In this document: positions 11,307-25,630 of the stretch, piece by piece
Numbering within the stretch: position 1 is the stretch's first letter
Layout: the number at the start of each line of letters is the position of its first letter
Source of the DNA: Bryobacterales bacterium
GTDB taxonomy: Bacteria > Acidobacteriota > Terriglobia > Bryobacterales > Bryobacteraceae
Direction: 5' to 3'
Assembly (NCBI GenBank): GCA_003167495.1
Contig: PMSX01000157.1
Span: forward strand, 1 to 64,000
Length of the DNA: 64,000 nucleotides
Translations under genes and position numbers: made by a program
Notes under the pieces: model-generated
Database searches by the model: none
What the model saw: the letters and a program-made list of their open reading frames with translations, nothing else
What the model was told of the DNA's origin: nothing

Positions 11307-12929
11307 TCACTTCCCAGCCAGTGTCAAAGCATAGAGTGTATCGCCGGCTCCCGCGATGATGTATTGTTTGCCGTCTAGCGTGTAGGTGGAAGGGCCATTG
11401 CTTAAGGCCGCCGTGAGCCTCTGGTGCCAAAGGATGTTGCCGTTAGCAGGATCGAATGCCACGAACTGGCCGGAATCGCCGGTGAACAAAAGATGGCCCG
11501 CTGTGGTTAGAATTCCGCCGCCCATGCCGGCATCGTTTCTAGAAATACCGCTCTCGTGTGAATGCTTCCACTTGATTTTGCCATTGCGAATGTCTATCGC
11601 GAACAAACTGGATCTCGTATCAAAGTTCCCTCCGCCACCGCCGCCATAACCTTCGGGTTCGGCAGATGTGTCGTAAAGATAAGCGACGCCGTACCCTTCT
11701 ATTCCATTCAAATAGAAGAGTTCTGTCTGCGGATCGTAGCTAGGGGGCGGCCAATTGGTGGCACCCATGGCCGGCATATCGATCATGGAACCATCTACTT
11801 GTGGCTCCTTCGAAGGATCGGGAATTGGTTGGCCTTTGCTATCCACGCCTTTTGCCCAGTTGCCAGTTCCGGTAAAAGGGCGGGAAACCAGGTTTTGGCC
11901 ATTAGTGCGATCAAGAACAAAGAACCAGCCGCAGCGTGCGCCTTGTGCTAGAAGTTTGCGCGGCTTCCGATCGATCATGGCGTCGAACAGAACGGGAGTC
12001 TCGACATTGTCCCAATCATGCGTGTCGTGCGGAGACGCCTGAAACCACCAGACCAGTTTGCCGGTATCGGCATTGAGCGCAACGATAGATGCGGTGTATA
12101 AGTTTGCCCCCTGCCGGCCTTGGCCGGCGAAAACGGGATTTGCGTTGCCTGTTCCCCAATACAGCAAGTTCAAATCCGGATCATAGGTGCCGGGAAGCCA
12201 AGTCATACCGCCTCCATGGTCCATGGCTGCCTGATTCGGCCAAGTCTCCGATCCGGGATCTCCCACCTTTTGGGGTTCGCTCCACCAGCGCCATTGCAAC
12301 GCGCCGGTTTCCGGATCATGCGCTTCAAGATAACCGCGCACATCCATGGCATCGCCGCCCACGCCTACCAGCACATGGTTCTTGACGATCATTGTCGACA
12401 TCGTTGTGAAGTATTGCAGCTTCTCGTCGGCCACTTTGTGCCGCCATCGCTCCTTACCATCTTTGGCGTTGAGCGAAATAAACCAGCCATCTGGTGTCAA
12501 GAAATAGAGCCAGTTGCCGTACATGCCGACGCCCCGCTGGCCAATTAAATGTCCGCCATGGTCTTCAAAGTCAAATTGCCAGAGCAATGCGCCCGTCAAA
12601 GCATTTACCGCGAACACGTGGTCAGGAATAGTGAAGTAGAGAGTGCCATTGACCATCAACGGCGTCGACTTAATGGTGGGCGCGCCCACGCCCCGCTGCG
12701 GGCCGATGCCGGAAATGCGATAAGCCCATTCAATCTTCAGCAGGTTTATGTTGGATTGATTGATCTGAGTGAGATTGCTAAAGCGCCGCCCGGAATAGTC
12801 TCCGTTATAGGTGGGCCAAATATCGGGGGGTTGGTTGAAGAGTGTCAGCGTGGCGGGGTCAAGCAGTTGGCCAAACACGATACCGCTCACTAAAGTGGCC
12901 AGAGCGGCGGCATTTGCAAGCCGATTCAT
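11307..12929 (-). CDS. PQQ-type quinoprotein dehydrogenase, periplasmic (paralogue 3)
   Basis: 540 residues with a signal peptide, WPTYNGDYSGRRFS at about 38-51, QRGVGMYG near 131-138 and GTGN at 259-262. The SPHDTHDWD motif gives Asp305 and Asp307. Between blades it carries a glycine-rich loop (YGGGGGGNFD) not seen in the other two copies. The ATG overlaps the upstream di-haem cytochrome stop by 4 bases, repeating the arrangement at 10189-10192, so the two cytochrome-dehydrogenase pairs are an old tandem duplication. Same functional inference: periplasmic oxidation of an alcohol or aldehyde feeding a cytochrome. Confidence 0.9.
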   Translation of the reverse strand: MNRLANAAALATLVSGIVFGQLLDPATLTLFNQPPDIWPTYNGDYSGRRFSNLTQINQSNINLLKIEWAYRISGIGPQRGVGAPTIKSTPLMVNGTLYFTIPDHVFAVNALTGALLWQFDFEDHGGHLIGQRGVGMYGNWLYFLTPDGWFISLNAKDGKERWRHKVADEKLQYFTTMSTMIVKNHVLVGVGGDAMDVRGYLEAHDPETGALQWRWWSEPQKVGDPGSETWPNQAAMDHGGGMTWLPGTYDPDLNLLYWGTGNANPVFAGQGRQGANLYTASIVALNADTGKLVWWFQASPHDTHDWDNVETPVLFDAMIDRKPRKLLAQGARCGWFFVLDRTNGQNLVSRPFTGTGNWAKGVDSKGQPIPDPSKEPQVDGSMIDMPAMGATNWPPPSYDPQTELFYLNGIEGYGVAYLYDTSAEPEGYGGGGGGNFDTRSSLFAIDIRNGKIKWKHSHESGISRNDAGMGGGILTTAGHLLFTGDSGQFVAFDPANGNILWHQRLTAALSNGPSTYTLDGKQYIIAGAGDTLYALTLAGK

Positions 12930-13834
12930 TTCAGGGTCTCCAAATAGGCGGTTACGTTATGAATGTCGGCGTCGGTATATAGCGGCAATAGCGCACGATG
13001 CCCTTGCAAGTTATCTACCACGTTTACGTTTACCTGTGATCTCGGCCAGTAATGAACGTCTCCATTGGAATCGCGCAGAGCGACGTCGAAGTCATCGAGC
13101 TTCACGATCGTGCCGGTGACGGTCTCGCCCGATGGCGTTGAGACGGTAGCACGCGCCGGGTCTCTGGAAGCGGGCCAAAGGAATCGACTCTGCATCAAGG
13201 AAGCTTCTGGAAACTTTGCGGCAATCTTCGCCAGGTCGCCCGAGGGGGAGTGACAGCCGTTGCAGTGAGCATGAAAAAACTCGTTCCCTTTGTTGGGATC
13301 GCCGCGGAGCGCGTTTCTTGATCCCGCATAGATTTGATTGTAGATGCCGCGGTTGGCGGCCTGTTCGACCTGCAGCTTAATGTATTCAGAGATGTTATGG
13401 ATATCATCCGCGGACAATTGCTGGAACGGTGGCATTCCTGCTTGCGGCCGGCCGTTCTGAATGACAGGACCAATTTCATTTTCTTTCTCGTCATGCAGCA
13501 CCACCACGGACCGCAGCAGATTTGGGCCTTGCGCTCCACGAGCAGTTTCTCCGTGACAGGCTGCACAATTCTGTTTGAAGAGAGGCTCGCCTTTCTTGGC
13601 AGCGGCGGCATCAGGAGCAGGTCCCAAGCCGAGAAACTCGCGCGTGGAGCCGCGTCCGGCGGGAGGCCGCTGGCGTCCGGCATCGGGTTCTTGGGCGGAT
13701 AGGAGGAAGATACCGGCGATTAGGCAAGTCAAGGAAACGCGCAAGACGGCGGCGGTGTTGAGCGCTTCGCCGAAAAGGTTAGCGTGGTTTTTTCTTCCTT
13801 GGCGGCGCGCATCCGCGCTCTTTGCGCTTTTCAT
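12926..13834 (-). CDS. Di-haem c-type cytochrome coupled to PQQ dehydrogenase 3
   Basis: 302 residues with CAACH (90-94) and CNGCH (191-195); a Met ligand candidate lies in RPQAGMPPFQQL. The region after the second haem is homologous to that of the tri-haem cytochrome at 10189: the TPSGETVTGTIVKLDDFDV beta segment, then ADIHNVTAYLETLK. The first haem domain of the tri-haem protein has no counterpart here. The hydrophobic signal (VLRVSLTCLIAGIFLLSA) starts only near residue 30, and the first dozen codons coincide with a GC-rich repeat (13799-13831), so the annotated start may be an artefact of repeat insertion or translation may begin further in. Confidence 0.85.
   Translation of the reverse strand: MKSAKSADARRQGRKNHANLFGEALNTAAVLRVSLTCLIAGIFLLSAQEPDAGRQRPPAGRGSTREFLGLGPAPDAAAAKKGEPLFKQNCAACHGETARGAQGPNLLRSVVVLHDEKENEIGPVIQNGRPQAGMPPFQQLSADDIHNISEYIKLQVEQAANRGIYNQIYAGSRNALRGDPNKGNEFFHAHCNGCHSPSGDLAKIAAKFPEASLMQSRFLWPASRDPARATVSTPSGETVTGTIVKLDDFDVALRDSNGDVHYWPRSQVNVNVVDNLQGHRALLPLYTDADIHNVTAYLETLK
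13799..13831 (+). repeat. Partial copy of the GC-rich repeat found twice at 21.5-22.5 kb
   Basis: ggcggcgcgcatccgcgctc and the following tttgcgctttt match the right third of the copies at 21536 and 22368 with about three differences. It contains the small hairpin GGCGCG/CGCGCC and overlaps the first codons of the cytochrome gene starting at 13834. Confidence 0.65.
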
Positions 13835-13964
13835 GATTTCTCCGAGGAATTACTTGCAAGCGCCCTCCTGGCGCCTGCTCGCTAGTTTATCGACACGAAC
13901 TCGAGGCGAATGCGGTGACGGCGCCGCCGAGTGACGCCGCACTGTATAGCAAGTCAAGCTATGA

Positions 13965-14569
13965 CTAGGTGAGCCAACAAAGGTCGCAGTCCGGTCGGAC
14001 GCGATGCAAGGCATTTTGAAAAGGTCGCTTGATGTTTTCGATGCCCGCGAGGTCTCCATGCTGAGGATGGAACCTCAAGGTCAACCTCCGGCCGCTCAAG
14101 TCTAGAAGCAGCAAGGGCTGATTAGATAGCTTGCGCTCATCGCTCCAGAACCGATTCAAATCATCCAAGGTGACGTTGCAAGCGATGTCTGCGTGGGCGA
14201 CGGTGTTGCTCCAGCGATAAACGATCGCTTCGTCGTATTGAACCCAGTATTTCGCGGCCACAACTCTGCTCGAATGGCTCGGGAAGGATCGAAGTGAAAG
14301 AAAATGGTCTTTCGTTCGGATCGAGGAGCGAAATTATCTTCAAGGGCAAGGCCAAGCAGATCTAATTTGTCGTAAATTTCACCCAACCGGTGATAGGCGG
14401 CTCGGGTGCCTTCTTCTGTCACGAAAGTCGATCCGATGATCAACCGCCAATTGGCCTCGGCGCGGTTGATCCAAAACATTGCCTCCACGGGAAATTTCTG
14501 CTGATCCAATTCACGCAAAAGCGTTTCGGCGTCTTCAATTTTACTCTCTACCAGTTTCGTTTCAACCAT
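13965..14569 (-). pseudogene. Hypothetical protein, apparently frameshifted
   Basis: The start at 14569 gives MVETKLVESKIEDAETLLRE..FPVEAMFWINRAEANWRLIIGS, typical of an uncharacterised family seen in Acidobacteria and Planctomycetes. After FFHFDPS the frame drifts into low-quality sequence, while the -1 frame continues sensibly as PSHSSRVVAAKYWVQYDEAIVYRW and runs to 13965. A single-base loss near 14278-14290 would join them into about 200 residues. If there is no error, the products would be two overlapping open frames (14156-14569 and 13965-14261). Function unknown. Confidence 0.5.
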
Positions 14570-15155
14570 TGCAAGACCCCGTGATCGATTCATTGCTCAG
14601 TTCGTTGCCGACGCTGTCAGGATAACGCTTCCGGTCGAGCTGCGGCAAATGGCGGACCTTCGCCACTGCGGATTATTTTCCGTACGTCGGCTGGTGTTGT
14701 CGGACTTCAGCGAGTCCAGTCAATAGAGCGGCCAGTCGCGGGCCGAGGAACTAAGCACAAGAAGCTAAGAGAGACGTTTTTGCGAAACGAAGCCAATCCC
14801 ACGGACGCCGACAGTTTTGTAAAAACAAACCTAACCACCGATTCAAGGCACCCTGGTCCCAGATGGCAATGGGTGGCCCGAAGCGGCATGACGAACTAGC
14901 CTAGGTCGCTGACGCTCCCAGCTCGGTTTCGATATTGGCTGATTTCAGATTTGTCGCGAATTCGAAAAGGCCGGCCAGGCGGCCGCCCAAGACGGAGAAC
15001 CTGCAGTATGAAATTTTCAAACAACCGGGCCAACGCTTCGAACGCCTTTCGGCGAGAAAGAATTAGCGCCTGCCTCAAGAAGTATTTTTGAGCTAATTAG
15101 GACGAGGAAATAATTCCGCTAGACTTGTGATCGGCTGTCGGGGCGCCGGTGTTTG
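14570..15155. other. Non-coding stretch holding a dispersed repeat
   Basis: I find no gene here. The open frames have no recognisable product and poor codon structure. The only structured part is the interspersed repeat at 14881-14966, listed separately. Confidence 0.5.
14881..14966 (+). repeat. Interspersed repeat, uninterrupted copy
   Basis: The run beginning aagcggcatgacgaactagc and continuing through ctaggtcgctgacgctc, gctcggtttcgatattggct and gtcgcgaattcgaa recurs at 25421-25630, where it is split by a 113-bp insertion. This copy therefore shows the empty site for that insertion. Confidence 0.85.
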
Positions 15156-15377
15156 TTACACAGACGAAGCCGCTCGTGAGTGCGCTGTCTCCAGATGGCA
15201 CTTGTACTGTTCCAGTGCCGCGTCCATGGCAAGCTTGGCTGCGCGTACCTGTTGTTTTGCTGTTTTCGCCTGTTCAGGCTCCGCCCCGCCGGAACCGCGA
15301 AGGACAAGGTTCCAGTGATCATCGGCGGTCTTCTCCAGCAGCAGCTCTAATTCAGCACAGGTGGCGCAACCTCGCAT
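15156..15377 (-). CDS. Small cysteine-containing helical protein, unknown
   Basis: 73 residues from ATG at 15377, chosen because AAAGGAG lies 6-7 bases upstream; a frame open to 15413 lacks such a site. It begins MRGCATCAELELLLEK, with a CxxC pair, and continues as an alpha-helical, Glu/Ala/Lys-rich segment with one more Cys (QYKCHLETAHS). Similar short proteins occur in Acidobacteria without known function. It is divergent from the radical SAM gene, 213 bp away. There is no signal peptide or Gly-rich precursor tail. Confidence 0.6.
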   Translation of the reverse strand: MRGCATCAELELLLEKTADDHWNLVLRGSGGAEPEQAKTAKQQVRAAKLAMDAALEQYKCHLETAHSRAASSV

Positions 15378-15465
15378 TGAGACTCCTTTGAAATCCAACG
15401 TGACGCTTAGCAAATCGCCTCGGCATATTATGTCACTTTTTCACCGGCTTCTGTTTTGCAATTGG

Positions 15466-15489
15466 CCGGGATAAATACCGGGATAAATA
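15466..15489 (+). repeat. Tandem 12-bp duplication upstream of the radical SAM gene
   Basis: ccgggataaata occurs twice back to back, about 100 bp before the radical SAM start at 15591. It may be a slippage product or a regulatory site; nothing shows which. Confidence 0.6.
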
Positions 15490-15590
15490 AATGAATGAAA
15501 AATTGCTCCGACGGAGGCGGTTGGAGATACAATTCATACTAACCAAATGGTCAATGGATATTGAGGTTTGCCCCCACTAAGGACGATTCG

Positions 15591-16589
15591 ATGAACCCAA
15601 AACACAAACACATACTCAAGACATTTCTTAACGGTTCCATGCGCCTGGCAGAATTCGCCATTACCAACGTATGCATTGCTAAATGCAGCTTCTGTGACAT
15701 CTGGAAGCAGAGACCCAGGCAGTTCGTCGACAAGGAGAAAGGGCTGCTGGCTATTGATAAACTTGCCGACTTCGGCGTTGCCCATATCACTCTCACGGGC
15801 GGGGAACCGCTCATTCACCCCAACATCATTGATTTTGCGAAGAAATGCACTTCCCGCAACATCCACAACGTGGTTCTTGATTCAGCTCCCTCACTCATTA
15901 CCGAAGCCATCCTGGACGGCCTAGAGGAAGCGCGTAGTGACATGATCTCCATTTCGTTTGATTCAGATGATCCTAAAGTCTTCGAGGAATCCCGACGGAT
16001 TCCAAATATCTTGCCGGACATCGAAGACGCGGTGAAGAGGATGAAGAGGACGAAGATCAAATCCATGGCCTCCATCCTTATCTGGAACAATAACCACGAT
16101 CGGATGGAAAAGCTCTTCATAAAAGCAAAGGACATGGGATTTGACCTCATTTCTGTCAATTACCCGACTTTCTCAAAATCAGTCCTGTATCCTCTGGGCG
16201 GAGAAGGTATCAGCCTATCAAGAAGCTCGGTGATCCAGTCGCTTCAAAGCATCATTGAGCTCAAGAAGCAGAAGAAATATACAATCATCAACTCCATAGC
16301 GTCGATGGAGAATATTATCCAGTACCTCACTGATCCAGCAACGGTGCGCTATGCGTGTCTGGGCGGATCTCGCGTCATGTTTGTTGACTGGTTTTGTGAT
16401 GTAAGGCCATGTATGCAACTTCCGCAGGTGCTGGGCAATATCCTCACCATGACAAAAGATGACTTTGCCACAGAACCATGTAATAGGTGCAACATGAGCT
16501 GGTACCGGGATTTCAGCACGTTCTTCCATGGAGTGAAATCATTTCCTGTTTATCTGGAATCGGTAACATCGTCGAAGGGGTTGTATTAA
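15591..16589 (+). CDS. Radical SAM protein with cysteine-rich C-terminus, probably acquired
   Basis: 332 residues from ATG at 15591 (MNPKHKHILKTFLNGSMRLA). The [4Fe-4S]/SAM motif is CIAKCSFCDIW, followed by the GGEP-type motif TLTGGEPLIHP. The C-terminal part has further cysteines (YACLGG, CDVRPCMQ, CNRCN) arranged like a SPASM/twitch auxiliary-cluster region. The gene is visibly more A/T-rich than its neighbours and uses AGA/AGG arginine and AAA lysine codons freely, which the flanking genes avoid. No partner gene lies in the same direction. Reaction and substrate cannot be deduced; it could modify a peptide, a lipid or a small molecule. Confidence 0.85.
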   Translation: MNPKHKHILKTFLNGSMRLAEFAITNVCIAKCSFCDIWKQRPRQFVDKEKGLLAIDKLADFGVAHITLTGGEPLIHPNIIDFAKKCTSRNIHNVVLDSAPSLITEAILDGLEEARSDMISISFDSDDPKVFEESRRIPNILPDIEDAVKRMKRTKIKSMASILIWNNNHDRMEKLFIKAKDMGFDLISVNYPTFSKSVLYPLGGEGISLSRSSVIQSLQSIIELKKQKKYTIINSIASMENIIQYLTDPATVRYACLGGSRVMFVDWFCDVRPCMQLPQVLGNILTMTKDDFATEPCNRCNMSWYRDFSTFFHGVKSFPVYLESVTSSKGLY

Positions 16590-16621
16590 ACCTGCCGAGA
16601 GACTCGCGTGGCTCGTGCTCG

Positions 16622-19408
16622 TCAGAACCGTACTTTTAGCTGGACCCAAGCTCTTATTGGCGCACCCGGCGTGAAGAAGGTTGCACTCTGCGCCGGGGCG
16701 CTTCCAGCATAGGGTCCGGTTGTGTATGCCGGGAAGGGCAGGGACTGGATCGCGCCTTGAGCATTGAGTGCGGTGTTTGAGAGCCATGCGCCCGTGTAAT
16801 ATTTGTGGTCGAAAAGGTTATCGATCTGGAGCACCAATTGAAGGTGCCGCGTGAGATCATAACGGGCGCGGAAATTGGTGATGGCGTAGCCCGGTGAAAC
16901 GCCGGGTCCGAGATAGTAGACGCCATCGGCCTTGTAGGCGTTGTTCTCGTTGCCGCGAGCGTAAGAACTCGAGATGACCACTTCGTTCAAGTCAAACGCC
17001 AGTTTTCGAGTAGCCTGGAAGTCCGCATAGGCCTTCCCGGTATTCTTCGGAATGAGTGGAATTCGATCGCCTGGCTGGACGGTGATGACACCAGGAAGTC
17101 CCGGATATCCCTGCAATGCGAAGTTGTTGGTGTTATTGGCCGAGCCATCAAGCGTCTCGGTGCTCTGGTAGGTGGCCGACAAAAAATTGTAATCCAGGCC
17201 CCAGGTGACTCGTCCGCTGCGCCCATCGAGATCTGCATCGAACCCCTCCCGGAGCGTTTTGGCGAAGTTCTGGAAATAGCCGGTGCCGGTCTGGGGCGCC
17301 GCGATGAACAGAATATCGTTGTGGTTTGCGGCGTGGTACGCCCCCACATTCCAGCTCAGGTCGTGGAAGAACGGGATTTCGGGTTTCCCGCGCAGACCGA
17401 CTTCCCAAGTGTCGGTAACTACCTGCTGAAGCGGCGGATCAGAGGACAGCGAATTGGGCAAGCTGCAAGGGGCACTGGGATCGGCGCAACCGAGTTCAAT
17501 GGACGTCGGTGCGCGGCTGCCCTGCGAGTATCTGGCATACGCATTCACGGTGGAGAACGGGCTCCAGGTAATGCCGACGGCGGGGTTGAACCGCTGAAAC
17601 ACATAATCGCCATCGAGTGAGCCAGGCCCGGGAATGGGATTGAGCCGGTCGAAATTGTCGACGGTAAAACGGTTATAACGTCCGGAGAAAGTCACGTTCA
17701 CCGTTTTCGCAAGAGTAAGCGTATCGGTGAAGTAGAGGCTCCAGTTGGGAGTAATGCCATGCAGGTTGATTTCTGAATTTATGGGCACGCCATTGGCGCT
17801 GGTAGATCCGTCCTGCCATGCCGGGACGCTGGTGAGCGTGTAATTAGGATTGACATAAGCGTAATCGGTGGTCTGCGTGTAGGTGACACTACCATGGTCG
17901 ACGGCCGCTCCGGCAGCGAACTGGTTATGCCCAATTTTGGGCGAAGTCATCCAAGTAAGTTGGCCGGAAGCTCCGTACTCGTTTTGCACCTCTTTCGAGT
18001 AAATGTTGACGCCATCGCATGTCTGGTCCGGGTTGCCCAGCTGAAGAGCTTCCGCGATGCAGGGCCACTTTGGAAACGCTGTGTTCGTGGTGTTAGCGCC
18101 GCTGGTTGGGAAACCGGTATAACCCGCGGCGCTGAGCACCGCCTGTTCCTCCGGCGTTGGTTGATAGATCAGCAGGCCTTGCGCGTCTGTGTTGAAATTG
18201 GGATCGATTGCTTCTGTGCGGATGTTGCGGAACCAGGCGTTGCCCGAAAACGTTAGATTGTCGGTGAAGCTGTGGCGGGCGATGAAATTGAAGGAAGGGG
18301 AGCGGTTCGCGGTGACGTCGGGAATAGAGTAGACGCTCGAATAGTTAGTTTCGAGCAGACGGTATTCCTGCAAGCCGTTCCCGATCAGCGTGTTGTAGGC
18401 GTATGACATGGTGAGAGCGAGGTCGGTGTTGGCCGTGCGCCAGCCAAGCCGCGCGAACCCTTGGCGGACGTCGGAAGGCGAATCAGTGCGCCAACCCGAT
18501 TCGTGGAATCCAGTCCCCGTGAGAAACCAGTTAAACCCTGTTGCCTTGCCGCCGCCCCACTCGGCTTCGACCGACTTTCGTCCACTGCTGCCGTACAGCA
18601 CATTTCCGCTGATGCCGGGGTTAGTTATACCGTTCTTGGTTGTGACCGAGAGCGCTCCTCCCAAGGTGTTCAACCCGAACAGAGGGTCTGACCCAGGCAC
18701 GAGCGTGACCTCGGAGATCGCATCTTTCGGGATTAGATCCCAGCTCACGACGTCGCCGAAAGGCTGATTTTGCCGCACGCCATCCACGTAGACCGAGAGG
18801 CCTTCGGGCGTGCCGAGCAGCGGCGAAGCGGTGTAGCCGCGGTAATTCACGTCGGGCTGGAAGGGGTTACCCTGCATTTCATTGAGAAACACACCGTTCA
18901 GCCGGCGATTCATAAGATCCCCAAGATTGAGTGCGCCGCTGTTTTGGATATCGGCCGCGGTCGCCGTCTGGACTGGACCCGCTACTTGGTTGGTGGTGAG
19001 ATCTGTACCAGCGAGAGGCAAAGCTGAAACGACGTCGACTTTGGAAGTCTGACTGCTCAGCGCCAGCGTGATAGTGCGCGCGAGGGGTGTCTCAGAATTC
19101 ACGTCGATCAGCACGGACTGGGTAACGAACCCAGGGTTGGAAATCTCGAGCCGGTAGCGGCCATAGGGCAAATTTCCAAGAGTAAATCTTCCCTGCGCGT
19201 CCGTCTGAAAGCTACGCTGCACTCCCGGTGCGAGACTTTCCAATTTTCCGGAAGCTTCCATCACGGCGCCGGAGGGGTCTTTGACCTGCACGCGGATTTC
19301 GCCATTCGGACTCTGGCCCTGGAGAGCAAACGTGGCAAGCAAAAGCACTGTTGCCGCGCGCAGGTACCTCCAAAGCTGTTGTTGAGGTCTGAATGCAAAA
19401 CCGTTCAT
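16622..19408 (-). CDS. TonB-dependent outer-membrane receptor with carboxypeptidase-regulatory N-terminus
   Basis: About 928 residues from ATG at 19408; a GTG 15 bases upstream is an alternative. After a signal peptide comes a carboxypeptidase-regulatory-like beta sandwich (GEIRVQVKDPSGAVMEASGK, DAQGRFTLGNLPYGRYRL), then a plug domain (DIQNSGALNLGDLMNRRLNG, EGLSVYVDGVRQNQPFGDVV, LGGALSV) and a 22-strand-type barrel ending in the terminal aromatic (VQLKVRF). It imports a siderophore, glycan or metal complex using TonB energy. On the same strand and upstream of it lie an anti-sigma and an ECF sigma gene, a layout like FecI-FecR-FecA, so it may be their target. The ligand is unknown. Confidence 0.92.
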   Translation of the reverse strand: MNGFAFRPQQQLWRYLRAATVLLLATFALQGQSPNGEIRVQVKDPSGAVMEASGKLESLAPGVQRSFQTDAQGRFTLGNLPYGRYRLEISNPGFVTQSVLIDVNSETPLARTITLALSSQTSKVDVVSALPLAGTDLTTNQVAGPVQTATAADIQNSGALNLGDLMNRRLNGVFLNEMQGNPFQPDVNYRGYTASPLLGTPEGLSVYVDGVRQNQPFGDVVSWDLIPKDAISEVTLVPGSDPLFGLNTLGGALSVTTKNGITNPGISGNVLYGSSGRKSVEAEWGGGKATGFNWFLTGTGFHESGWRTDSPSDVRQGFARLGWRTANTDLALTMSYAYNTLIGNGLQEYRLLETNYSSVYSIPDVTANRSPSFNFIARHSFTDNLTFSGNAWFRNIRTEAIDPNFNTDAQGLLIYQPTPEEQAVLSAAGYTGFPTSGANTTNTAFPKWPCIAEALQLGNPDQTCDGVNIYSKEVQNEYGASGQLTWMTSPKIGHNQFAAGAAVDHGSVTYTQTTDYAYVNPNYTLTSVPAWQDGSTSANGVPINSEINLHGITPNWSLYFTDTLTLAKTVNVTFSGRYNRFTVDNFDRLNPIPGPGSLDGDYVFQRFNPAVGITWSPFSTVNAYARYSQGSRAPTSIELGCADPSAPCSLPNSLSSDPPLQQVVTDTWEVGLRGKPEIPFFHDLSWNVGAYHAANHNDILFIAAPQTGTGYFQNFAKTLREGFDADLDGRSGRVTWGLDYNFLSATYQSTETLDGSANNTNNFALQGYPGLPGVITVQPGDRIPLIPKNTGKAYADFQATRKLAFDLNEVVISSSYARGNENNAYKADGVYYLGPGVSPGYAITNFRARYDLTRHLQLVLQIDNLFDHKYYTGAWLSNTALNAQGAIQSLPFPAYTTGPYAGSAPAQSATFFTPGAPIRAWVQLKVRF

Positions 19409-19458
19409 ATCTGGATATTCCACGTGCCGGCGTTTTGTTCAGAGTTTCTTATAGACAA

Positions 19459-19497
19459 GCTAGGTCGCTAACGCTCCCGGCTCCGATTCGGCTAGCG
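19459..19497 (+). repeat. Diverged partial copy of the interspersed repeat
   Basis: ctaggtcgctaacgctcccg followed by gctccgattcggctagcg resembles the core of the 14881 repeat (ctaggtcgctgacgctccca, gctcgg). It lies between the TonB receptor start and the 3' end of the anti-sigma gene. Confidence 0.45.
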
Positions 19498-20298
19498 AAA
19501 TCCGCTCAGCGGTCGATCGGTATGAAAGTACTTCTTGTAGGCTTCGATCCAGTTCGATGCGATGTCGCGCTGGGCTGTCGCTAAATCAACTTGTCCGTCG
19601 CAGACCAAGTCTCGTAAGTGGTCTTCCAGCGCGTCCTTGACTTGGGCGTTCCAAACCGTTCCTTCGTTGGATTGCGGCCATATGTTATGAATATCGTCTG
19701 CCCCACCCAGCGCCGGCGTGATCAGATAATCGATCTCATAGGCGGTGGGGCCAGCGGGCCGGATACCGTACTCGTCAAATACTCTTCGTCGGAGCGCGAC
19801 CGGGACAAGCTTGTTCTTTGTGTTTGCCTGACGGCATACTTCTTTCTCGCTCGCCAGAACCACTGCGCCAGGAGTCAAGCTCGGATTGGGCACGGGGAAG
19901 GCCACCACGGGGCCGACTTCTCTTACCCAAGCGTGGAAAGTAAAGTATGACAGTGCCCCTAATCCGCAGGCGGCGGCAAGAATCGCCGCTGAGAGCCGCC
20001 AGGAGATGGCGCGAAACCAGTATAAGCAGGAGCTGCGCTGCTTCCCGGCGAGCTGAGCGAGATGCGCCTTCAGCAAAGCGCGCGGGCCATCAGCGGGAGG
20101 AATCTGCGAATCGAAGGTCCGGCGGTGTATGCGGATAAACTCGCTGATCGAAGCCTCGATTTCCTGTTGGCGTGTCCGGCAGTGCCAGCAGGAGTTAAGA
20201 TGCGCGTGGACACGATGGTCGTCTCGCGCAGAAAGCTCGCCATCGGCGGCCATGAGCAATTCTTGATCGGAAAGATGAGATTCTTGAGGCAGCATCAT
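19492..20298 (-). CDS. Zinc-finger anti-sigma factor with HNH-like periplasmic domain
   Basis: 268 residues. The N-terminus has the anti-sigma zinc motif (HAHLNSCWHC, with the upstream His in DDHRVH), which binds the ECF sigma factor encoded just upstream (1 bp between the genes). One transmembrane helix lies near residues 100-120 (AAILAAACGLGALSYFTF). The exported part, about 150-260, contains an HNH-endonuclease-like signature (VFDEYGIRPAGPTAYEIDYL, PALGGADDIHNIWPQ) in which the usual catalytic His before LI appears as Tyr (IDYLI), and an adjacent helical part (VKDALEDHLRDLVCDGQ). This fusion is unusual; the HNH-like part may be a sensor rather than a nuclease. Confidence 0.8.
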   Translation of the reverse strand: MMLPQESHLSDQELLMAADGELSARDDHRVHAHLNSCWHCRTRQQEIEASISEFIRIHRRTFDSQIPPADGPRALLKAHLAQLAGKQRSSCLYWFRAISWRLSAAILAAACGLGALSYFTFHAWVREVGPVVAFPVPNPSLTPGAVVLASEKEVCRQANTKNKLVPVALRRRVFDEYGIRPAGPTAYEIDYLITPALGGADDIHNIWPQSNEGTVWNAQVKDALEDHLRDLVCDGQVDLATAQRDIASNWIEAYKKYFHTDRPLSGFR

Positions 20299-20299
20299 T

Positions 20300-20860
20300 T
20301 CACCGTTCGGCGGCGCGCGCGATACGCACCAGAGATCGTTCGAGACAATTCGCGACTGAGCCGAGAGACATATCCAGAACCTCGGCGATTTCCCGGTAGC
20401 GCAGGCCTTCTGCCCGCAGATAGAGACAGCACCGGCTCCGTTCCGGCAGCGTCAACATAGCGGCCATAAGACGCTTCTGCGTTTCGTTCGTCTCGAAAAG
20501 CTCTTCAGGGTTGGGAGCCGGATTGATGGATTCGGAAATGTTTTCAGATCCCCGACGGCTTCGTTGCTGCTTCAGCGCCAGGTTATGGGCAACACGGAAT
20601 AACCACCCGCGAAGATTATGCCGCGCTTTGCGGCACTCCAGGTGCTGGAAAAGGGCAAGGAACGTTTCTTGGATAATATCCTCCGAATCTGCAATAGTCA
20701 GAGAGAATCCCAACAGATAACGGAGCAACCGATCCCTTAACTGGTCGAAAAGCTCGATCACTTCTTGCTCGACAGCAGAGGGCGCATCAACGTGTTCGGC
20801 AGCCGGGACCGAAAGATCCTGCGTAGCATTCGATTCTCGGGACGAGTCCGACATCTGCAT
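20300..20860 (-). CDS. ECF-type RNA polymerase sigma factor
   Basis: 186 residues. Region 2 is seen as SLTIADSEDIIQETFLALFQ with NLRGWLFRVAHNLALKQQR, and region 4 as LPERSRCCLYLRAEGLRYRE with the helix-turn-helix IAEVLDMSLGSVANCLERSL. No C-terminal extension is present. It is followed at once by its membrane anti-sigma factor, and then the TonB receptor, so the three are probably one regulatory unit: signal at the envelope releases sigma. An alternative ATG three codons in (MSDSSRES) is equally plausible. Confidence 0.93.
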   Translation of the reverse strand: MQMSDSSRESNATQDLSVPAAEHVDAPSAVEQEVIELFDQLRDRLLRYLLGFSLTIADSEDIIQETFLALFQHLECRKARHNLRGWLFRVAHNLALKQQRSRRGSENISESINPAPNPEELFETNETQKRLMAAMLTLPERSRCCLYLRAEGLRYREIAEVLDMSLGSVANCLERSLVRIARAAER

Positions 20861-21012
20861 TTTCGACTGTAGCCTTTCTCCGGAAGCGATATCAATTTGC
20901 GGTTGTCTTCTACTTGAATATTCCTTCGCATGCCCTTTTGTTCAAGCTTTTTCGTTCCAAACTTTCTTCAAAAAAGTCTGAACAAAACCACCGCCCAGGG
21001 AATAATGAATAT

Positions 21013-21522
21013 ATGGACCGAAGTGCACCTATTTTCGCACCGCTGAGCCGGCTCTTGCTAACCTTGGTTTTGGCCGCTAGCATGTCGATTACGGCCGGCT
21101 TCTGCCAGCAACCTTCGGGCGCAACCGCCACGCCGCAGAAACCTTACCGTGAGAGATTGTTGGAGCGCGCACGCAACGGCGACGCGGACGCACAATTTGA
21201 ACTCGGGAAAAACTACGAGACCGGCAGGATAGGCTTGCCCAAGGATTTTTCGCAAGCGCAGTATTGGTACCGCAAGGCCGCCGATCAGGGAGATCCCTAC
21301 GCAGAGGCGAGCCTCGGCATTTTATTCAACTTCGGAAAGGGTGTCCAACGCGACTACGTCCAGGCGTACATGTGGTACGACCGGGCGGCGATGCACGCGC
21401 AGGGCGGCGATCGGGACTCGATCGTAGAATTGCGCGATGGAATAGTCGAAAACCTGACACCGCAGCAGATTGCCGAGGCGAAGAGGTTGGCCCGGGAGTG
21501 GAAGCCCGTGGCGAAGCAGTAA
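21013..21522 (+). CDS. Sel1-repeat secreted protein
   Basis: 169 residues from ATG at 21013, chosen because a signal peptide starts there (LLLTLVLAASMSITAGFCQQ); a frame open from 20914 adds unlikely residues. Two or three Sel1-like helical repeats follow (GDADAQFELGKNYETG..LPKD, AQYWYRKAADQGDPYAEASLG, QAYMWYDRAAMHA). Sel1 repeats are TPR-like scaffolds for protein binding. It is divergent from the sigma-factor gene and immediately upstream of a di-haem peroxidase, whose candidate start lies 4 bases past this stop. Confidence 0.85.
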   Translation: MDRSAPIFAPLSRLLLTLVLAASMSITAGFCQQPSGATATPQKPYRERLLERARNGDADAQFELGKNYETGRIGLPKDFSQAQYWYRKAADQGDPYAEASLGILFNFGKGVQRDYVQAYMWYDRAAMHAQGGDRDSIVELRDGIVENLTPQQIAEAKRLAREWKPVAKQ

Positions 21523-21526
21523 GCAG

Positions 21527-22828
21527 ATGACCTTGACTCGCGCAAAACGGGCACGGTGTCGGGCTCGCCGCCCGAGGATCTGCGGAGTTCCTCTGCCGTG
21601 TGGCGGCGCGCATCCGCGCCCTTTGCGCTTTCGAACTTGGCTCTTCACAATACCGGTTATTTCATTGATTTTTGTGGCGGGATGTAACGGAAGCCGTCAC
21701 GATGTGACGGATGCCGGACTGGACGTGAAGCCTATCGGCGCGCCAATCGAGATCAAGACGCCACTGGGACTGCCGCCAGTTCCTATACCACCTGGTGCTC
21801 CCGAAACAGCGGAAACCGTCGCGCTCGGCCGTAAGTTGTTCTACGAAAGAAAACTGTCCATGGATAATACGCTGGCCTGCGCTTCGTGCCACAACCCGCT
21901 CCTCGGCTTTACCGACGGGCAAAGGCATTCGATAGGCGTTGGTGGAAAGGTTGGAATTCGGAACGCGCCCACTCTGGTGAACGCCGCGTATGTTCCAGCG
22001 CAGTTCTGGGACGGGCGGGCCCACAGTTTGGAGGAGCAGGCCGGCGGCCCTATGGCCAACCCGATCGAAATGAATCAGGCGCACGAGGTGACCGTTTCGA
22101 AGCTGGCAGCCGACCCGGTTTACCGGGCGCAATTTGCGAAGGCGTTTGGTGCTGGGCTTGTGACCATCGGCAAGGTGACGACGGCGCTTGCCGGCTTTGA
22201 ACGAACTCTGATCAGCGGTAACTCGCCTTTCGATCAATACGAGTTCGGCGGTAATAAAAGCGCGCTCAGTCCGGCGGCCGTCCGGGGCCTTGCCATATTT
22301 CGCGACCCGAAAAGAGGCAATTGTGCTGCGTGCCATACGATCGACAAGAGCTACGCGGTTTCGGAGAACTCGCGCAAAACGGGCACGGTCCCGGGCTCGC
22401 CGCCCGAAGATCCGCAGAGTTCCTTTAGAGTGGGGCGGCGCGCATCCGCGCCCTTTGCGCTCTTCACCGACGGCAAATTTCACAACATTGGAGTGGGAGT
22501 GAACGACGAAGGCGAGTTGACCGACCTAGGTCGCTACAGCGAGACAAAACTTGAGGCGGACAAGGGCGCCTTCAAAACTCCCACGCTCCGCAACGTGGCG
22601 AAAACCGCGCCTTACATGCACGATGGCAGCTTGAAAACGCTTAAAGACGTTGTCGATTTCTACGCCGGCGGCGGTAACTCCAATCCTTATCTGGACAAAG
22701 AAATCAAAACGATCAAGCTTTCTGGAGCGGATCGCGCCGACTTAGTCGAATTCCTTAAATCTCTGACCGGTGAGATGCCACCGAATGTAGGACCGCCCGA
22801 AAATACGCAAATGGGAAGACTCAAATGA
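21527..22828 (+). CDS. Di-haem cytochrome c peroxidase family lipoprotein carrying in-frame repeat sequence
   Basis: MauG/CcpA-type protein with two haem motifs, CASCH (in NTLACASCHNPLLGFTDG) and CAACH (GNCAACHTIDKS), and the usual NAPTLVNAAYVPAQFWDGRA and TPTLRNVAKTAPYMHDGSL. A lipobox-like segment (LFTIPVISLIFVAGC) suggests lipidation, but the 35 residues before it, from the first in-frame ATG at 21527, are encoded by a GC-rich repeat copy. A second copy (22368-22464) adds about 33 residues between the second haem and ALFTDGKFHNIGVG, where relatives have few. The frame stays open through both. It overlaps the next gene by 4 bases. The protein would reduce peroxides or oxidise a periplasmic donor. 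Confidence 0.82.
   Translation: MTLTRAKRARCRARRPRICGVPLPCGGAHPRPLRFRTWLFTIPVISLIFVAGCNGSRHDVTDAGLDVKPIGAPIEIKTPLGLPPVPIPPGAPETAETVALGRKLFYERKLSMDNTLACASCHNPLLGFTDGQRHSIGVGGKVGIRNAPTLVNAAYVPAQFWDGRAHSLEEQAGGPMANPIEMNQAHEVTVSKLAADPVYRAQFAKAFGAGLVTIGKVTTALAGFERTLISGNSPFDQYEFGGNKSALSPAAVRGLAIFRDPKRGNCAACHTIDKSYAVSENSRKTGTVPGSPPEDPQSSFRVGRRASAPFALFTDGKFHNIGVGVNDEGELTDLGRYSETKLEADKGAFKTPTLRNVAKTAPYMHDGSLKTLKDVVDFYAGGGNSNPYLDKEIKTIKLSGADRADLVEFLKSLTGEMPPNVGPPENTQMGRLK
21536..21632 (+). repeat. GC-rich 97-bp repeat, copy A
   Basis: Begins actcgcgcaaaacgggcacg and ends catccgcgccctttgcgctt. It aligns with copy B at 22368 with about ten mismatches and no gaps. It covers the apparent 5' end of the di-haem peroxidase gene and contains the hairpin GGCGCG/CGCGCC with loop CATC. 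Confidence 0.85.
22368..22464 (+). repeat. GC-rich 97-bp repeat, copy B, inside a gene
   Basis: Same unit as copy A, here lying within the peroxidase gene and read in frame as NSRKTGTVPGSPPEDPQSSF and the following RVGRRASAPFAL. Copy A is read in another frame. The insertion leaves the haem motifs and the conserved C-terminus intact. Confidence 0.85.
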
Positions 22829-23601
22829 AACGAACGTTCTTGGTTGCGCTTTGCTGCGTTGTGGCCATGCTTGCCAGTTGCTCGGGAACGCAAAAGAAAG
22901 AGCCGGAGGCCGCCCCGAAGCAAGCGGCTGCGCCTTCCTATTTTCAGGTTGACGGCGCCACGGCCGGCACACTGACCGGGAAAATCAAATTTACCGGAAG
23001 GAAGGCCGCGCGCAAGCTGATTGATATGAGTGAAGATCCTGCCTGCGTTGAGGCGCATCATGGTAAGGCTTACGACGAATCGGTGGTTGTGAATCCAAAT
23101 AGCACTCTTGCCAACGTTTTTATCTATCTCAAAAGTGGACTGGAAGGGAAAACGTTCGCTGTGCCAACCACGCCGGTGGTTATCGACCAGAAGGGCTGCT
23201 GGTTCCATCCGCGCGTTATGGGCATACAAGTGGGTCAGACGCTGCAGGTGACGAACTCCGATCCGGTGACGCACAATATTCACCCGCTGGCTCAGATTAA
23301 TCGCGAATGGAATCACAGCCAGGGACAGGGCGATGCACCGTTAGCGCGCCGGTTCCTCAAGCCTGAGGTTATGATTCGCGTCAAATGCAATATTCATAGT
23401 TGGATGCATGCATACATAGGTGTTGTGGAGCACCCTTACTTCGCCGTCACAGGGCCGGACGGGAGTTTTGCGATTCAAAATATTCCGCCGGGCGATTACG
23501 TGGTGGAAGCATGGCAGGAAACGCTGGGGACGCAGGAACAGAAGATAACGGTAACACCCTCAGGCAAAATCGAAACCAATTTTACGTTTAAAGGAGAATA
23601 G
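22825..23601 (+). CDS. Cupredoxin-like lipoprotein with carboxypeptidase-regulatory tail
   Basis: 258 residues. The N-terminus is a lipoprotein signal (MKRTFLVALCCVVAMLASCS). The middle is cupredoxin-like: GQTLQVTNSDPVTHNIH, then VKCNIHSWMHAYIGVVEHP, supplying His, Cys, His and possibly Met for a type 1 copper site. The C-terminus is a short beta domain (GPDGSFAIQNIPPGDYVVEA) like carboxypeptidase regulatory domains. It is coupled by a 4-base overlap to the peroxidase gene, so the pair may pass electrons between copper and haem. Good match to the methylamine-utilisation/plastocyanin-like group by motif. Confidence 0.83.
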   Translation: MKRTFLVALCCVVAMLASCSGTQKKEPEAAPKQAAAPSYFQVDGATAGTLTGKIKFTGRKAARKLIDMSEDPACVEAHHGKAYDESVVVNPNSTLANVFIYLKSGLEGKTFAVPTTPVVIDQKGCWFHPRVMGIQVGQTLQVTNSDPVTHNIHPLAQINREWNHSQGQGDAPLARRFLKPEVMIRVKCNIHSWMHAYIGVVEHPYFAVTGPDGSFAIQNIPPGDYVVEAWQETLGTQEQKITVTPSGKIETNFTFKGE

Positions 23602-25297: not shown

Positions 25298-25420
25298 TCA
25301 ATCAATTTCGCGTACATATTCGCGCAAGGAATTCACGCAGATCAGGCAAACAAACATCAAGAATTTGAACCTTGCTTGGATTTATCGCATTTGAACGTCC
25401 TTGGCGCCGTGGGCCGTTCA

Positions 25421-25630
25421 AAGCGGCATGACGAACTAGCCTAGATCGCTGACGCTCAATGTCGTTTACTTAAGCCCAAGCAGGTCTGGGACGAAGCCTT
25501 GAAGCCTGCGTTTTACTTGGAATTCGATCGGGCGTTCAGGCGGCGATTCTCCTTAAGTAAACGACATTGCGCTGACGCTTCCTGCTCGGTTTCGATATTG
25601 GCTGGGTTTCGGATTCGTCGCGAATTCGAA
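25421..25630 (+). repeat. Interspersed repeat copy interrupted by a MITE
   Basis: Left part 25421-25456 (aagcggcatgacgaactagc, ctagatcgctgacgct) and right part 25570-25630 (cgctgacgct, gctcggtttcgatattggct, gtcgcgaattcgaa) together match the uninterrupted copy at 14881-14966. The rest of the 25298-25735 gap shows no gene. Confidence 0.85.
25457..25569. mobile_element. 113-bp MITE with 18-bp perfect inverted ends and 10-bp target duplication
   Basis: The left end CAATGTCGTTTACTTAAG (25457-25474) is the exact reverse complement of the right end CTTAAGTAAACGACATTG (25552-25569). It is flanked by a 10-bp direct repeat CGCTGACGCT (25447-25456 and 25570-25579), present once in the empty copy at 14881-14966. 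The interior of about 77 bp has no usable open frame, so movement must depend on a transposase elsewhere. The target length would suit an IS4-type element, but this is inference. Confidence 0.93.

Follow-up and report, generated by a model that had tools for sequence, protein, structure and literature searches.

A di-haem cytochrome c peroxidase gene of an uncultured Bryobacterales bacterium holds two copies of a dispersed repeat, one of them inserted in frame in the middle of the coding sequence, and this repeat is very probably a non-autonomous mobile element that uses a degenerate CTTYTRAG target and whose in-frame insertions into genes survive. The gene lies in the window analysed here, a stretch of 64,000 nucleotides (contig PMSX01000157.1 of assembly GCA_003167495.1). 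We propose that a core of about 94 bp with pairing arms sits between copies of CTTYTRAG, so that one insertion would usually add 102 bp. The peroxidase gene would have received one copy in its middle and another at its 5' end, and the family would have spread by transposition. The features concerned are collected in Table 1.

Table 1. Repeat copies in the window and the genes associated with them
Feature	Position	Strand	Remarks
Di-haem c-type cytochrome gene, N-terminus formed by copy C	12926..13834	-	PF13442, E 5e-18; PF00034, E 1.8e-15
Copy C of the repeat	13734..13829	+	Read antisense in the adjoining gene as MK[repeat]SLTCLIAGIFLLSA
Sel1-repeat protein gene, upstream of the peroxidase	20914..21522	+	PF08238
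Di-haem cytochrome c peroxidase (CCP_MauG) gene, carrying copies A and B	21527..22828	+	PF03150, E 1.6e-58
Copy A of the repeat, within the 5' end of the peroxidase ORF	21530..21627 (left edge approximate)	+	Covariance-model match, 106.5 bits
Insert B, one 102-bp repeat unit (34 codons)	22358..22459	+	In frame, after CAACH (second haem motif) and before the conserved segment ALFTDGKFHN

An in-frame insertion in a di-haem peroxidase gene

The gene belongs to the CCP_MauG family (PF03150), which it matches with 198 bits against a curated cut-off of 25.6, and encodes two CXXCH haem motifs. Its open reading frame spans 21470-22828 and stays open for about 430 codons; the likely start is an ATG 4 nt past the stop codon of the Sel1-repeat gene, giving a protein of 433 residues. 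The protein can be aligned with 47 relatives, and in the resulting 48-sequence alignment (A2) the haem-motif residues C118, C121, H122 and C266, C269, H270 occupy invariant columns. The remaining invariant columns are kept as well.

The first-pass annotation, made from the sequence without database searches, had described a 97-bp repeat at 22368-22464 that adds about 33 residues in frame after the second haem and matches copy A with about ten mismatches. The place was right, and the mismatches number exactly ten (22368-22461 against 21536-21629, 84 of 94 positions identical), but the insert is in fact one full unit with the limits given in Table 1. These limits emerge when the DNA is set beside the nearest orthologues (L052 of G016 and L053 of G010): the borders are TAC GCG / GTT TCG ... 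TTT GCG / CTC TTC, and they bear out that the insertion is in frame and follows the second haem motif. The insert matches a covariance model of the repeat with 112.9 bits.

Do orthologues lack the insert? The distance from CXXCH to FHN is 47 residues in the window peroxidase as against 13, 9 or 15 in all 61 distinct relatives (45, 9 and 7 of them, respectively). This count comes from 63 of 67 relative loci (13 residues in 47, 9 in nine, 15 in seven), among which two pairs are the same gene twice; the other four were left out because their reading began outside the gene's frame. The extra residues, whose absence from orthologues had been proposed as a check, thus occur in none of the 63 measured loci. 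Insertion B left the gene open, its 102 bp being divisible by three and stop codons being scarce in each of the repeat's six frames. The 34 added residues, rich in Ser, Pro, Arg and Gly, would be translated and most likely make up a loop after the second haem motif and ahead of the FHN segment, a loop that the peroxidase probably tolerates.

The peroxidase with its insert is likely still a working enzyme, and selection appears to have acted on the gene since the insertion. The opposite reading, that the insertion abolished function and the gene is a young pseudogene left open by chance, has in its favour that 34 residues near a haem domain could harm the enzyme and that the allele is known here from one genome only, so that selection after the insertion has no direct measure. 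We nevertheless consider it unlikely, since some 430 codons are open, neither CXXCH motif nor any other invariant column of A2 has been lost, and pairwise dN is low against three relatives (0.17 against G016, 0.23 against G010 and L270; dS is saturated or undefined). Copies A and B also differ by 11%, a figure from which the age of the insertion cannot be read. Short repeats can cause chimeric joins, and the listing for this genome gives 396 contigs and 7.59% contamination, so it might be asked whether misassembly in a partly contaminated bin spliced the repeat into the gene. Such an artefact is extremely improbable: the added length is exactly 102 bp and preserves the frame, the gene's two copies share only 89% identity, and a like exact in-frame insertion is found in another bin, in the MFS transporter gene of G016 described below.

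Copies at the 5' ends of genes

Three observations go beyond the first-pass annotation: copy A lies inside the same ORF as insert B, a cytochrome c gene begins in frame with copy C, and the family has many N-terminal copies. The ten differences between copies A and B, which are 89% identical over 94 nt, all fall between unit offsets 22 and 65, and both ends are identical. An ATG (21527) and a TTG (21533) precede copy A in frame; from its end to the hydrophobic segment there is no further ATG, GTG or TTG. The N-terminus would read MTL[repeat]FRTWLFTIPVISLIFVAGC, with the repeat ahead of a lipoprotein-like signal sequence. Because no ordinary in-frame start separates copy A from the lipoprotein-like segment and ATG 21527 stands directly behind the Sel1-repeat gene, this copy too is most likely translated, as a long, positively charged n-region of the signal sequence.

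A relative of the Sel1-repeat protein precedes the peroxidase in L270 as well (68% identity over 143 residues; the only such match among the 67 loci, whose flanks are short), and there the peroxidase open frame extends back into the end of the Sel1-repeat gene. The empty site of copy A was sought in this locus with the same upstream gene, where the N-terminal stretch proved to be unrelated. Copy C is more diverged (65% identity to copy A at 13735-13828); it matches the covariance model with 89.4 bits at 13724-13832, contains no stop codon in the frame of the cytochrome gene and has an upstream ATG in that frame (L116).

The first-pass annotation had spoken of protein-coding domestication of the repeat. 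On such a reading the inserted peptide would have been recruited for a function of the peroxidase, such as partner docking, electron entry or localisation, and be kept by selection. That the ten substitutions separating insert B from copy A bring no stop or frameshift, and that dN over the whole gene is low, would suit this reading. Read in the frame of copy B, however, the substitutions are spread evenly over the codon positions (3 first, 4 second and 3 third), none of the measured peroxidases shares the insert, and other proteins use several of the repeat's frames and both of its strands, so that no one peptide is preserved. Domestication is therefore very unlikely; nothing indicates that the extra residues do anything, and a tolerated insertion suffices.

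Anatomy and proposed target of the repeat

The core of about 94 bp has a left end GAACTCGCGCAARACGG... and a right end ...CCGCGCCCTTTGCG. Conservation is strong at the ends, judged from 159 copies whose flanks were long enough, and weaker in the middle. The arms are subterminal, the left one beginning about 6 nt inside the core, and they can pair in a terminal stem of 14 pairs that is formed in 92.0% of 448 cells; this stem was named by us and then counted, RNAalifold giving only 8 consensus pairs. Five cells are changed on both sides as against a shuffled mean of 1.4 (6 of 500 shuffles were as high). Since the stem slid by +2 columns scores equally for covariation, this is support rather than proof. 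At the level of single copies, DNA folding was matched or bettered by 7 of 200 shuffles for copy A, 30 for copy B and 56 for copy C.

These features raise the question of whether the repeat is a regulatory or structural element of DNA or RNA, for example a transcript hairpin, whose presence in coding sequence is incidental. Its conserved ends and self-pairing arms, the strong predicted RNA fold of copy A (z -2.87) and the many copies without a CDS-like ORF through them are what such an element would display. Against this, the RNA fold of copy B on the + strand is equalled by 19 of 200 shuffles, and a search of Rfam with 13000-23500 gave no match at E<=1. We consider this explanation quite unlikely as an account of the repeat; it is in any case compatible with mobility and does not exclude it.

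An octamer resembling CTTTTGAG stands left of the core, and the octamer on the right begins with CT and is looser. Of 121 anchored copies, 88 have a core plus octamer of 102 bp, and in 95 this length is divisible by three. Some copies form tandem arrays, and in those examined they are spaced 101-102 bp apart (four in G010:C227, for example), with one target-like octamer between neighbours. Around 101 single copies from the window's own genus, the likeness of left and right octamers was reached by 1 of 200 permutations. The single copies of G074 have identical flanking octamers in 2 of 10 cases and octamers matching at 7 of 8 positions in three more, a likeness reached by 56 of 1000 permutations, all octamers there being similar. 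No signal was obtained in G089 (876 of 1000 permutations), and the octamers on either side of insert B hardly agree. We infer insertion at a preferred, degenerate target CTTYTRAG with a duplication of about 8 bp that would have decayed in older copies. The repeat is MITE-like in being dispersed, short and present in many copies, with conserved ends and inverted repeats near them.

Copies and distribution of the family

That the repeat occurs elsewhere in the genome, another check proposed at the outset, was confirmed by BLAST: a 109-bp stretch gave 31 matches at E<=0.1 in the window's own genome, the best non-self one at 2.4e-29. The covariance model, built from 32 copies, found 41 matches at E<=0.1, of which 32 at E<=1e-6. 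In eight genus mates, picked because of their BLAST matches, it found 148 at E<=1e-12. A first search of relatives gave a match at E<=0.01 in 16 of 30 genomes, the window's own included; 12 of 16 genus mates matched, and outside the genus there were only three short, weak matches. With the covariance model at E<=1e-6, matches were found in 10 of 61 genomes of the family, the window's own and G002 among them.

Two of these ten genomes, from other genera, have shorter units. In G074, of the same family, the unit is 81 bp in 13 of 15 anchored copies. Of 32 anchored copies in G089, 19 measure 77 bp and 10 measure 78 bp; the genome has 52 matches to this 77-78 bp sister repeat, most of them more than 90% identical and several in tandem. 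The near-identical copies are a sign of recent activity and are probably young.

Several further observations were made in the course of these searches. Plasmids gave no match to the repeat at E<=1e-5. Two viral contigs (L364 and L365) each have one exact match to the 22-base right-end pattern, which may be due to chance. A partial repeat lies at 1501-1540 of L020 (G000:C12:24160), in a 799-residue ORF that by eye looks sensor kinase-like, and another near 1501 of L024 (G000:C5), in a stretch that may be coding; both could be worn remnants of insertions. The window has a second, unrelated repeat of 48 nt (14870-14917 and 25410-25457, 88% identical), the exact core of which occurs in only two of 433 fetched loci, both covering this window. 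Finally, the window's own assembly (G000), with the contig number and contamination given above, totals 9.39 Mb, about twice the size of several genus mates, and may be a mixed bin.

Other genes carrying the repeat

Besides the peroxidase, two proteins of families named by Pfam have in-frame inserts that are supported by orthologues. An MFS transporter (G016:C194) has 34 extra residues compared with its orthologues in G001 and G004. A PAS histidine kinase (G000:C249) has 58 extra residues, made up of a whole and a shortened copy, compared with one gene of G007.

Many more copies stand at N-termini, as in MTSR[repeat]LWPRLACLGLLVLPG (L108) and MHCIVVR[repeat]GLLLLAPLVMCGS (L193). In L394 of G074 the frame reads MLYRLSATILLK[repeat]LLIASTSFAAV, flanked by CTTCTGAA (left) and CTTCTGAT (right). 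The N-terminal empty site could not be located for AmtB (19 relatives) or GH95 (15), the N-termini of which diverge.

An open frame through the repeat in any one gene proves little, because 696 of the 1020 strand-frames (68.2%) of 170 unique full-length copies are free of stops anyway. More can be learned from comparing classes of frames. CDS-like ORFs served only as a coarse filter here, codon-usage gene calling being weak, and the p-values are guides, since several frames can come from one copy and are not independent. With a CDS-like ORF downstream, 76 of 92 frames are open; with one upstream, 21 of 40 (Fisher two-sided p 5e-4). In 35 of the 92 the downstream ORF has a hydrophobic stretch, defined as ten residues beginning within its first 24. 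If the interval from the repeat to this stretch contains no ATG, GTG or TTG, all 15 frames are open and have an upstream start (one of these is the internal MFS insertion), as against 12 of 20 where such a codon intervenes (Fisher one-sided p 0.005; six of the 20 qualify only via a TTG-coded Leu directly after the repeat). The 57 frames without a hydrophobic stretch are open in 49 cases. The comparison of upstream and downstream ORFs does not discriminate in G089 (170 of 192 frames open overall, 17 of 17 with a CDS downstream and 10 of 12 with one upstream) or in G074 (75 of 90, 8 of 10 and 2 of 4).

We chose 24 in-gene loci by hand, 15 of which are anchored; all 15 have units of 102 bp, whereas 80 of the 106 other copies are a multiple of three (Fisher one-sided p 0.02), it being noted that the internal insertions are 102 bp by construction. 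Among the nine unanchored loci, the copy in L127 is 15 bp shorter and still a multiple of three.

Are the N-terminal sites chosen by the element, or are they simply where insertions do least damage? Twenty-one cases with a hydrophobic segment divide among the strand-frame classes as 7, 5 and 1 on one strand and 1, 6 and 1 on the other. Eighteen of them fall in three classes, which are also the three with the fewest stops, and this favours survival of harmless insertions over frame-specific choice of target. The recognisable survivors in genes are mostly N-terminal, in signal peptides and first membrane segments, places in which added residues should be least harmful.

A broader reading is offered tentatively, as one that may well prove wrong: protein-compatible mobile palindromes might occur across an Acidobacteriota family and repeatedly lengthen N-termini and add internal loops in the proteins of free-living soil bacteria. 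A unit length of 102 bp (81 bp in G074), few stops in the six frames and a target whose CTT YTR can be read as Leu-Leu in one frame would together let copies settle in frame in signal peptides and other N-termini. The length contrast in G089 fits this reading. Its commonest unit, 77 bp, is not a multiple of three, and the sole signal-peptide insertion recognised by eye in this genome (L391) is a 78-bp copy.

The search for a mobilising enzyme covered the Y1 transposases of these incomplete genomes and found no candidate. As to a parent element, none stood out among the 52 matches of G089. An isolated-end search for a parent insertion sequence gave no information, since diverged partners look missing in such a search.

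Comparison with known repeat families

Among the matches listed from the open-licence PMC literature, none describes a protein-coding palindromic repeat in Acidobacteriota. The Solibacter genome is reported to have many short repeats, most under 50-100 nt, and no such family appears in the covered parts of that account (PMC3174227).

Coxiella has two MITE families, QMITE1 and QMITE2, with about 50 copies each, direct repeats and some copies in frame inside ORFs, according to the available portion of their description (PMC5896051). By that description they differ from the present repeat in being 150-400 bp long, in carrying promoters or GTAG REP sequences and in having an unrelated host. The enterobacterial RU-1, RU-2 and RU-3 repeats (ERIC, YPAL) are likewise MITE-like and fused in frame to ORFs. 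In the parts of the sources available, however, fusions to putative small or C-terminal ORFs prevail, whereas the insertions found here lie inside a transporter, a kinase and a peroxidase.

REP and REPIN elements, as partially available accounts portray them, resemble the present repeat as short, self-pairing, dispersed sequences. REPINs are also of similar length. Unlike the present repeat, REPs are described in these accounts as extragenic. A further difference concerns Y1 (RAYT) transposases: these were found at 27 loci in 7 of 10 genomes searched, and the repeat lies within the fetched flanks at 1 of the 27, which is near chance by a rough density estimate, so no such association was seen.

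The closest parallel is with the palindromic elements of Rickettsia, a resemblance that had been suggested from the sequence and that agrees in behaviour with the available parts of the reviews (PMC2229807, PMC10969869). As described there, these palindromes measure 105-146 bp and have terminal inverted repeats; they occur in intergenic DNA and also as in-frame parts of protein genes, many of these being conserved, and a guanylate kinase bearing one is reported to be translated and active (PMC2229807, PMC10969869). Common to both is a palindromic repeat in frame in unrelated genes, the orthologues of which are without it, here those of the peroxidase, the MFS transporter and the PAS kinase. 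The two differ in that each Rickettsia element is described, in what is available of these sources, as encoding a conserved peptide, whereas several frames and both strands of the present repeat are read. Further features seen in the present repeat are a target resembling CTTYTRAG, whole units arrayed in tandem and numerous N-terminal sites. The comparison is one of behaviour, and the repeat is set apart by its use of many frames and by a host of another phylum; it seems to work like the Rickettsia elements, yet we do not assign it to them.

Mobile DNA that enters proteins without breaking them is, as far as these partly available reviews cover it, known mainly from Rickettsia and a few proteobacteria (PMC2229807, PMC10969869). 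The present case comes from uncultured soil bacteria of another phylum and has well over a hundred copies across relatives, with in-frame inserts supported by orthologues in three proteins. It allows comparison of the positions, lengths and frames in which insertions survive, and of whether insertion into signal sequences reflects a choice of target or selection only. N-termini in genomes carrying such repeats may also be misannotated.
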